DNA of 64,000 nt from Synechococcus sp. PROS-9-1 (GTDB lineage Bacteria > Cyanobacteriota > Cyanobacteriia > PCC-6307 > Cyanobiaceae). The notes under the pieces are model-generated. The model saw nothing but the letters and a program-made list of their open reading frames with translations, was not told the origin of the DNA and made no database searches. Below, piece after piece: positions 59,748 through 62,806 of this stretch; positions within the stretch are counted from its first letter, which is position 1; the number at the start of each line of letters is the position of its first letter. The stretch spans positions 744,001-808,000 of the forward strand of contig NZ_CP047961.1 in the NCBI RefSeq assembly GCF_014279775.1, written 5' to 3'. Position numbers and translations under genes: made by a program.

Positions 59748-61853
59748 TTAGGCGCTGAAGCTGCGTTTCGCCGGGATTGGATAGGGAATCCGGCGGTGCC
59801 GCATGCGCCTCCAGACGCGCACAAAGGCATGCATCACCAGGTCAACTTCGGCGCGACTCAGGCCGCTCTGACTCAGCTGTCCGTCGGCTAAGCGCGCTTC
59901 CAAGATGCGCTTCACGGTCGTTTGCGCTTCGCTGTCGCTGGTGTCGGGGGGAAGTGATCGCAAGGCGGCCTCACAGCCGTCTGCAAGCATCAAAATTCCG
60001 GTTTCTTTCGATCGAGGTGTGGGGCCTCGATAGCGAAATAAGTGTTCTGAAACCGTTGGATCCTTTTGCTGGGCTTGATGCAAGAAAAAGCCCATCCGCA
60101 AGGTGCCTTGATGCTCCGGAATGAAATCCGCGATCGGCCGCGGCAAGCGGTAGCGCCGAGCCAGTTTGAGGCCTTCGTCCACATGGGCCTGGAGCACTCC
60201 GGCACTGGCGACCGGGTCGTTCAATTTGGTGTGTGGATTCTCTTCTCCGGTGGTTTGATTTTCGATGAACCAGTTCGGAGCATGGAGTTTGCCCACATCG
60301 TGATAAAGGGATCCTGTTTTGATCAGATCCACATCGGCCCGAATCGCACGCGCTCCCTCCTCTGCCAATCCGCAGATCATCAACGTGTGTTCAAACGTTC
60401 CAGGTGCTTCTGACGACAACCGGCGCAGCAGCGGACGCTCTTGATCGGCCAGCTCCATCAAACGTGCCCTAGTGAGCAGGCCGAATGAGCTTTCTAAAAG
60501 CGGAATCAGCAGGATCGTGAGCATCATCAGCAGACCCATCAGTAGAGCCTCGGACGCGAGTTCTCCGGTATCGGGTGTGAGCCGTGTCCAGGACAGGTTC
60601 ACGGCTTCAAACGGTTCACGCAGCATCACCATTTCGGCGACTAACGCTCCCAATGGCAGCAACACAGCTAGTTGCAACAACTGAGCTCGGCTGCGTAATC
60701 GTCCGGCCTGAATAGCGGCGATCGCCGCAACGGCAGCCGTGATCAGCAGCCGGCCTTCGCCCAATCCGCTCACTGGAGTGGGCCAAAGCAAACAGCTCAC
60801 CGCCATCCAGGCCAGGCCACTGGTGGTTCCAAGGCCTTGGGCTAAAAGCAGCGTGGGTGGCACGATCACAGCCAGAGGGCTCACCGCTGCACCGAACCAA
60901 ATCTTGCTGAATTGGCTGATCAACAGCAGGCCGATCGCCAGAAACCCATGGGAGGCCTCAAGGCAGGGCCTTTCCCGTTTCATCACGAGCAACATCACTC
61001 CGCAACTCGCGAGTGCTTCGGTGAAACGCAACAACCAAATTCCTAGTTTCGGACTGCGATTGATCAGCCCAAAGAAATCGAGCACGTCATAGGCCTGGGA
61101 GCTAATCGGTTCGCCTTTGCGGGTGATCAGATCGCCAGCTTTGACTTCGATGGTTGGAATCCCTTGCTTGGTGATCAGCTCTTCAATCAGTCGTTGGCTG
61201 CGCAGCGGATCGGTCTGGAGGTTGCTGGCGCCTTGAAGTGTTGTCGTGGCGATCTTGCTGCCGAGGGTTCTTGCTGGAGCGTCCTCAGGTCCCAGCGCTT
61301 CGAGTTGCAGTGATGAAGCCTTTCTGAGCTGTTCAATCGCAACCGTGTTGACAAGACCTTGGCTGAGCATGCGATCCACAGCCTTGCGGATCGTCATGTC
61401 CCAGTTTTTGCGATCGTCTTGCGAACGTTTTTCCAGCCAAAATTGTTCGTCTGTAGTCAGATTGACGGGGCCAATTCGGTCGATGTTCTCGCTTCTGGCG
61501 ACGCGTTCTAATTCGGCGAGATGTCGCTCGAGCCTCAGCTTGAGGAGGCTTGATTGCTGCTCATCCACCACCTGCACAAAGGTGTTGGGCATCAAGCTCG
61601 ATCGCCTTTGATCGAGCGCTTCGCTGTCGACGACCCGCGCTGCCTTCGGGGCAATCGAATCGAACGGTGCTGGGATTCCTGGTCGTAAGTCGGGTTCCAC
61701 CAGCCAGGGCCAGCTGGAGACCAGGGCTACGGCAATGCAGACCAAAAGCAATCCAGCCTTTTGAAGGCGGTTCCAACGCAGCACAGGGCGTCGCGGTGAC
61801 TCACTCCGCAACCAGCTTCTCCAGAGCTGGGCTAGGGGATGAGATCGGAACAC
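59748..61853 (-). CDS. PgpH-type HD domain cyclic-di-AMP phosphodiesterase
   Basis: Membrane phosphodiesterase of the 7TMR-HD family that hydrolyses cyclic di-AMP in other bacteria. The 701-residue protein has an N-terminal membrane helix ([18 protein letters not shown]). A large extracytoplasmic HDED domain covers about residues 60-265. About seven hydrophobic helices follow (~275-460), and the C-terminal HD domain has [40 protein letters not shown], and [18 protein letters not shown]. The metal-binding H...HD signature is intact. It diverges from folD over a 71-base intergenic space made of a nested inverted repeat. Confidence 0.9.
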
Positions 61854-61855
61854 AG

Positions 61856-61918
61856 CTGTTGACCACTGATACAGACGCTAACCCCACTGAGGAAGCAAAG
61901 TGGGGGGAGTGTCAACAG
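61856..61918. promoter_or_regulatory. Nested inverted repeat filling the pgpH-folD intergenic space
   Basis: Outer arms CTGTTGAC (61856-61863) and GTCAACAG (61911-61918) are perfect complements. Inside them CCCCACT (61882-61888) and AGTGGGG (61899-61905) also pair perfectly. The 63-base element occupies nearly all of the 71 bases between the two divergent start codons. The outer arms each contain TTGAC, one on each strand, which resemble -35 elements for the two genes. Confidence 0.65.
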
Positions 61919-61924
61919 ACCTCG

Positions 61925-62806
61925 ATGGCTCTCAGGCTGGATGGCAAGCAGCTCGCCGCGCAGCTTGAAGTGCGTTTGCAGCAGCAAATTCAAAATGGCA
62001 TGGCCTCAGCAGGGCGTTCACCAGGCCTGGCTGTGCTTCGCATTGGCGACGATCCCGCCAGTGCGGTCTACGTGCGCAATAAAGAGAAGGCCTGTGCCCG
62101 CATCGGGGTGGAGAGCTTTGGTTCCCATCTCCCGGCCCATGCTTCACAGCAGGAGGTGTTGACAGCCATTCGCGAGCTCAATGCTGATGAGCGGGTGGAT
62201 GGAATCCTGCTCCAGCTGCCGCTGCCGAAAGGCTTGGACGAGACCCCGCTGCTGGCTGAAATCGATCCGAATAAAGATGCTGATGGACTGCATACCTTGA
62301 ATCTCGGTCGCCTGTTGAAGGGGGAACAGGGTCCAAGAAGTTGCACACCTGCAGGGGTGATGGTGATGCTCCGTGATCAGGGCATCGATCCCGCCGGCAA
62401 GCGTGCCGTCGTGGTGGGCCGCAGCATCCTGGTGGGTCAGCCGATGGCCCTCATGCTTCAGGCGGCGAACGCCACCGTCACGGTGGCCCATTCGCGCACG
62501 AAACATCTGGAATCGATCACCCGTCAGGCTGAAATTCTTGTAGTGGCTGCAGGTCGCCCCGAAATGATCGGTGCAGATCACATCACACCGGGTTGTGTGG
62601 TGGTGGATGTTGGTATTCATCGCCGCCCTGAAGGCGGACTTTGCGGTGATGTGCGTGCTGAGGAACTAGAACCCGTCGCTGCAGCGCTTTCTCCTGTCCC
62701 TGGAGGGGTTGGCCCCATGACGGTAACGATGTTGCTGGTCAACACTGTGGTGGCCTGGTGTCGACGCCATCAGGTTGCGATGGAATTGTCCGATTTGGTG
62801 GTTTGA
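61925..62806 (+). CDS. folD: Methylenetetrahydrofolate dehydrogenase/cyclohydrolase
   Basis: Bifunctional one-carbon enzyme: oxidises methylene-THF and hydrolyses methenyl-THF. From ATG at 61925 ([20 protein letters not shown]) it has 293 residues. Signatures are [20 protein letters not shown] (with the catalytic Lys), [59 protein letters not shown] and [20 protein letters not shown] longer frame upstream (from 61550) runs antisense inside pgpH and is not real. GGPP synthase follows 41 bases later. Confidence 0.96.

Follow-up and report, generated by a model that had tools for sequence, protein, structure and literature searches.

Overlapping (back-to-back) divergent promoters are a general class in bacteria. 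In cyanobacteria, -10 boxes follow TANNNT and promoters are often without a clear -35 element. Among the gene products closest to those considered here, the cyanobacterial c-di-AMP phosphodiesterases Synpcc7942_0779 and slr0104 are called PgpH-related in passages of two papers (PMC5897029, PMC5986932); they share the 7TM-HD family with the PgpH protein of the locus described below, whereas the promoter is not treated in these passages. Papers on transcription start sites exist for Prochlorococcus and other cyanobacteria; for Synechococcus CC9605, 1005 gene start sites have been reported (PMC5069720). A passage of PMC5780444 deals with phage promoters. Narrow literature searches of main texts, in one of which "folD" also matched "fold", returned no paper on the pgpH-folD promoter.

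Here, we analysed a window of 64,000 nucleotides (64 kb) from Synechococcus sp. PROS-9-1, in which pgpH (start codon GTG, minus strand) and folD (ATG) diverge from a short shared upstream region (Table 1). The locus resembles the overlapping divergent promoters of other bacteria in that about 70 bp separate two head-to-head genes and a stretch of 27 bp contains promoter-like boxes for both directions; it differs from them in that its start sites and promoter occlusion are predicted from sequence. On balance, an ordinary two-way promoter of compact build is the most likely reading of the region. By domain content, the pgpH product is predicted to be a PgpH-type c-di-AMP phosphodiesterase, with 7TMR-HDED, 7TM-7TMR_HD and HD domains all present (Pfam). 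The original prediction had described a divergent pair linking c-di-AMP degradation with one-carbon metabolism; the two genes are indeed divergent, with 71 bp between them. The gene crtE lies 3' of folD, from 62848.

Table 1. Features of the pgpH-folD locus (window coordinates).
Feature	Position	Strand	Remarks
pgpH	59748..61853	-	Pfam PF07697, PF07698 and PF01966 above cut-offs; NCBIfam HDIG
Divergent intergenic region	61854..61924		71 bp; pgpH (-) and folD (+) head to head
Outer repeat, left arm	61856..61863		CTGTTGAC; 8 bp; carries TTGAC
Block A, putative pgpH -10	61875..61880	-	TAGCGT on minus (ACGCTA on plus); columns identical in 29/29 genus and 57-61/62 family rows
Inner repeat, left arm	61882..61888		CCCCACT; 7 bp
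Block B, putative folD -10	61896..61901	+	CAAAGT here, CATGCT in most relatives; A 61897 and T 61901 in 29/29 genus rows
Inner repeat, right arm	61899..61905		AGTGGGG; 7 bp; overlaps block B
Putative folD transcription start (+1)	61908	+	A; A in 29/29 genus and 45/62 family rows
Outer repeat, right arm	61911..61918		GTCAACAG; 8 bp; carries TTGAC
folD, bifunctional methylene-THF dehydrogenase/cyclohydrolase	61925..62806	+	NCBIfam NF010783 (equivalog; 497.6 bits, cut-off 333); Pfam

The short upstream region is itself conserved. A genus search found it in 30 of 31 genomes, and all 30 retrieved loci have the head-to-head order with a gap of 69-72 bp. Other picocyanobacterial loci are arranged in the same way, with a gap mostly of 50-90 bp and extremes of about 33 and about 158 bp. 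Additional loci came from FolD searches that covered the best 80 matches and 400 genomes of a larger family. Among the 18 FolD loci without a pgpH match, pgpH was absent near folD in 17, all from non-picocyanobacteria (DNA searched up to 3 kb upstream), and the eighteenth, L057, is a fragment beginning inside folD.

Two conserved blocks in the intergenic region

Conservation was counted by column over the genus (29 distinct rows) and the family (62 rows); a further alignment took in, among genus loci, those with a 71-bp gap only. Blocks were counted in 78 distinct picocyanobacterial upstream regions, namely those whose pgpH lies no more than 100 bp away together with 17 extra regions, while 33 high-light Prochlorococcus regions were set apart. 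Block A in full reads ACGCTA(G/A)C at 61875-61882, and its first six bases are invariant in the genus. The form ACGCTAGC is present exactly in 62 of the 78 regions and with at most one mismatch in 73. Block B with its flanks (61895-61902) is GCATGCTG in most relatives and GCAAAGTG in the window; GCAWGCTG was found exactly in 58/78 and with at most one mismatch in 64/78. The window's own copies have drifted (GCTAAC in A, CAAAGT in B), and its block B fails the one-mismatch cut-off. The bipartite pattern ACGCTAGC-N8-20-GCATGCT occurs once per genome in 28 of the 31 genus genomes, always with a spacer of 12, while a reversed control occurs once in 2/31 and the pattern with the spacer fixed at 13 in none of the 31. 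No match is found in the three remaining genomes, that of the window and those of its two closest relatives, whose copies have drifted. The matches listed fall in the pgpH-folD loci of the genus except that of G016, from which no locus was retrieved and where the match lies at a contig end.

Each direction has one conserved box at a plausible distance from its gene, with some Prochlorococcus lacking one or the other: block B was not found in Prochlorococcus rows L053-L056, L061 and L082, block A was not found in Prochlorococcus rows L051 and L061, and ACGCTAGC is missing from four high-light Prochlorococcus sequences inspected. In four loci (L043, L044, L049, L166) the putative promoters would be rearranged: the distance between ACGCTAGC and the folD ATG is about 18-21 nt, and GCAWGCTG is missing even with one mismatch allowed. 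Among the 62 regions with both blocks (at most one mismatch), the A-B gap is 12 in 42, 9-46 in 17 and negative in 3, the negative values being chance or displaced matches. Block B lies 21-29 nt before the folD ATG in 58 of these 62 regions. Because the gap between the blocks varies and the distance from B to the ATG is steady, each block seems to be a -10 element in its own right, the two belonging to divergent promoters that overlap.

The candidate start sites are consistent with this assignment for folD. In 44 of the 62 picocyanobacterial regions with GCAWRCT, the base seven positions past block B is A, as would be expected for a -10 hexamer with +1 at this A. In high-light Prochlorococcus, GCATGCT is found upstream of folD in 30/33 regions and an A follows seven bases on in 30/30, which counts as one weak case, the regions being closely related and a run of A standing behind the block. 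On the pgpH side, the first in-frame start candidate lies 21 nt past TAGCGT in the window and 6-24 nt past it in 39 of 57 rows, the start codon often being uncertain, and the genus and family alignment rows have no conserved purine at the expected pgpH start. The hexamer CATGCT does not begin with T as a canonical -10 box does, and a consensus scan of the region found no TTGACA/TATAAT-type promoter, that is, no canonical -35/-10 pair for either direction.

Sequences resembling the blocks were also sought elsewhere. CTAG is generally avoided, and AACGCTAGC is rare: the window genome has 3 copies of it and 66 of the reversed control. Of the GCTAGCGTT sites listed elsewhere in the genus, 66 distinct ones were sampled and 56 lie outside long ORFs; of these 56, 35 are followed by an ORF start no more than 45 nt away when read in the TAGCGT direction, and 19 when read the other way. 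After collapsing to 33 clusters of orthologues the figures are 15 and 11 and the contrast is nearly gone, although among the nine multi-member clusters seven have an ORF start mostly in the TAGCGT direction and two mostly in the other. Since the direction contrast came mostly from orthologous copies, confidence in the promoter reading is slightly lowered. These counts suggest that the block A box stands at a steady position ahead of some conserved genes; they do not support a general rule. GCTAGCGTT lies 16-25 nt upstream of the start codons of a few other genes (products starting MTQLH in 12 genomes; MSELQ; MSLSRS), for example at L141, L143, L177 and L208, a position that would suit a recurring promoter box, rare though the sequence is elsewhere in these genomes. 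Block B alone is unspecific: the ten-base GGCATGCTGG occurs 2-16 times per genus genome and is commoner than its reversed control in most of these 31 genomes, and two high-light Prochlorococcus genomes have 3 and 4 copies of GGCATGCTA.

The same conservation could reflect a shared regulator bound to the core (GCTAGC, spacer, GCATGC) and not to any repeat arms, a reading that we think unlikely but leave some chance. It would account for the palindromic hexamer in each block and for the retention of GCATGCT upstream of folD in high-light Prochlorococcus despite their AT-rich DNA, even if these regions form one closely related group. In addition, dyads in the 12-bp spacer are longer than in shuffled sequences, both over 25 distinct spacers (2.92 vs 2.38 bp, p = 0.0015) and over 9 dissimilar representatives (3.11 vs 2.28 bp, p = 0.001). 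However, the dyad test was post hoc and its effect amounts to roughly 0.5-1 bp, the stem in the spacer of the window itself is 2, the block spacing is variable outside the marine clades, and the block A sequence also stands upstream of some other genes, as for a promoter box. The dyad tendency in the spacer (61883-61894 in the window) is short, changes between clades (CTCT..AGAG, GCTC..GAGC) and is weak in the window.

Nested inverted repeats over the proposed promoter core

The two perfect nested pairs described in the original prediction, 8 bp outer and 7 bp inner, are present, as is TTGAC in both outer arms (Table 1). They were said to fill the whole promoter; they do not quite do so, since 2 bp next to pgpH and 6 bp next to folD lie outside them. 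The TTGAC elements were considered as -35 boxes and rejected: neither TTGACC (plus strand, 61859) nor TTGACA (minus strand, 61916) has TANNNT 16-18 bp downstream, as judged by eye.

For one preselected interval the arrangement is rare: a nest of at least 8/7 bp appeared in 9 of 100,000 dinucleotide shuffles of the 71-mer. The whole 64 kb was scanned, however, and not one chosen interval, so that the claim that simple chance is unlikely does not hold. Ten dinucleotide-shuffled 64-kb windows contained 1, 2, 3, 1, 3, 3, 0, 1, 0 and 1 such nests, i.e. 8/10 contained 1-3, and the real window contains 1. Someone reading 64 kb should expect about one nest of this size. That it landed in an intergenic gap would be somewhat less likely by chance and is mildly notable.

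Conservation of the arms was compared in 43 distinct sequences, restricted to regions with the 12-base block spacer (7 from the close clade and 36 others). The first 7 bp of the outer pair, CTGTTGA/TCAACAG, are unbroken in all eight closest genomes, which represent 7 distinct sequences, and absent from all 36 others, the sister L009 included; overall they are kept in 7/43. The perfect 8-bp outer pair and the perfect 7-bp inner pair each occur in 1/43 sequences, that of the window genome only. The window genome gained its perfect inner pair through drift within block B and next to it. Among close relatives, where lack of conservation had been named in advance as counting against the repeats, the inner pair is not conserved, and the outer pair is not conserved beyond the eight closest genomes. 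Nor are the arms kept wherever the gene pair is kept, as a two-way operator would lead one to expect. A functional nested repeat is unlikely, and the nested repeats appear to be a lineage-specific coincidence over the promoter core.

A lineage-specific function of the outer arms keeps a small probability. A dimeric regulator might bind inverted outer half-sites (AGTG-N-TCAACAG) and loop or cover the promoter of both genes, which we consider rather improbable. The intact outer pair of the eight closest genomes fits such a site, the more so as an eighth pair forms in all 7 distinct close sequences if G-U is allowed. A one-base bulge further extends the outer pair (AGTG/CACT), and both putative leaders carry AGTG(N)TCAACAG before the start codon. 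The clade is shallow, though: 12 of 71 columns vary among the eight closest genomes, of which 1 falls among the 16 outer-arm columns (a deficit with P = 0.18) and 5 among the 14 inner-arm columns (an excess with P = 0.05), and the arms are absent from the other 36 sequences. CAGTG[N]TCAACAG is commoner in the genus than its reversed control, with 59 sites against 7 in the 31 genomes, but only 9 of the 59 are at the pgpH-folD locus, and two of the three other sites in the window genome lie inside long open frames; the excess may be coding bias. Of the shared two-way operator that had been put forward, the shared divergent promoter region is supported and the role of the arms is not, since these are unconserved beyond the nearest clade and their TTGAC is misplaced for a -35.

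RNA folding and covariation

The original prediction had alternatively proposed a structured RNA. Such an RNA, whether a leader hairpin or a small RNA, is highly improbable on the following results. The plus strand of the window folds to -27.1 kcal/mol (z = -3.3) and the minus strand has z = -1.2. The mean z values of the 7 distinct close sequences are -2.05 (plus) and -1.95 (minus), but those of 53 other sequences are -0.11 and -0.09; this sample covered gaps of 51-89 bp and left out the extra set from which the 17 added regions came. The fold signal is confined to the close clade.

Pairing in the named structure was scored on 21 rows with 20 distinct sequences, among them 7 from the close clade. 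In this set 68.2% of cells are paired (shuffles 63.3, slid versions at most 46.8) and the covariation score is 0.258 (shuffles 0.182, slid versions at most 0.139), both favouring a structure. The counts of pairs and types are ordinary, however. Compensatory changes, proposed as a check, are no more frequent than by chance, the 4 pairs with a double change being equalled by 142/500 shuffles, and the further pair types are reached by 468/500 shuffles. We read the pairing and covariation excess on the 20 distinct rows as mainly a contrast between two clades. Despite the raised score on these rows, no structure is kept with compensatory changes over the relatives. In the 36 non-close sequences Watson-Crick pairing is near the slid levels, both for the inner arms (0.37 vs 0.18-0.34) and for the outer arms (0.27 vs 0.21-0.32). 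With G-U allowed, inner pairing rises to 0.63 against at most 0.50 for slid versions, an excess of which conserved block B and its flank may explain a part. A search of 61700-62100 against Rfam gave nothing at E <= 1. Moreover, a transcript with both arms must start outside the repeat, against the conserved boxes.

Proposed promoter geometry and possible consequences

We hold with reasonable confidence that two divergent sigma-70-type promoters overlap within the 71-bp gap in a compact arrangement, and that the nested repeats are incidental to them. For pgpH, a leftward RNA polymerase would use TAGCGT (61880 to 61875) as its -10 box; for folD, a rightward polymerase would use the -10 box at 61896-61901 and start at about A 61908. 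Transcription from the folD promoter would probably continue into crtE as a folD-crtE operon. The predicted -10 boxes are 15 bp apart, so that each -35 region would fall on or beside the -10 box of the other promoter. Because of this geometry, two polymerases could hardly sit on both promoters at once. The outer repeat shared by the eight close genomes and the inner pair found only in the window would overlie this promoter core by coincidence. The locus illustrates that a nested hairpin, however striking, can be incidental to the promoter in which it lies, and two conserved, easily testable boxes are put in its place.

If the promoters exclude each other, c-di-AMP breakdown would be coupled to the synthesis of folate and carotenoid precursors in abundant marine phototrophs. 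A stronger form of this idea, which we judge distinctly improbable, is a picocyanobacterial switch in which the interlocked promoters on a polymerase-sized core, perhaps with a regulator on the GCTAGC/GCATGC dyad, make expression of pgpH and of folD-crtE mutually exclusive; c-di-AMP breakdown and one-carbon/isoprenoid synthesis would then exclude each other.

The length of PgpH varies among the loci. In four loci of Prochlorococcus and relatives (L096, L109, L074, L067), the PgpH frame upstream of folD has about 495 codons instead of the usual 700 or so. The homology of these short proteins to the window's PgpH begins near residue 273, most of the ectodomain (residues 58-265 in the window's protein, Pfam) being missing. 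In L047, L051 and L061, the PgpH open frames have about 700 codons.
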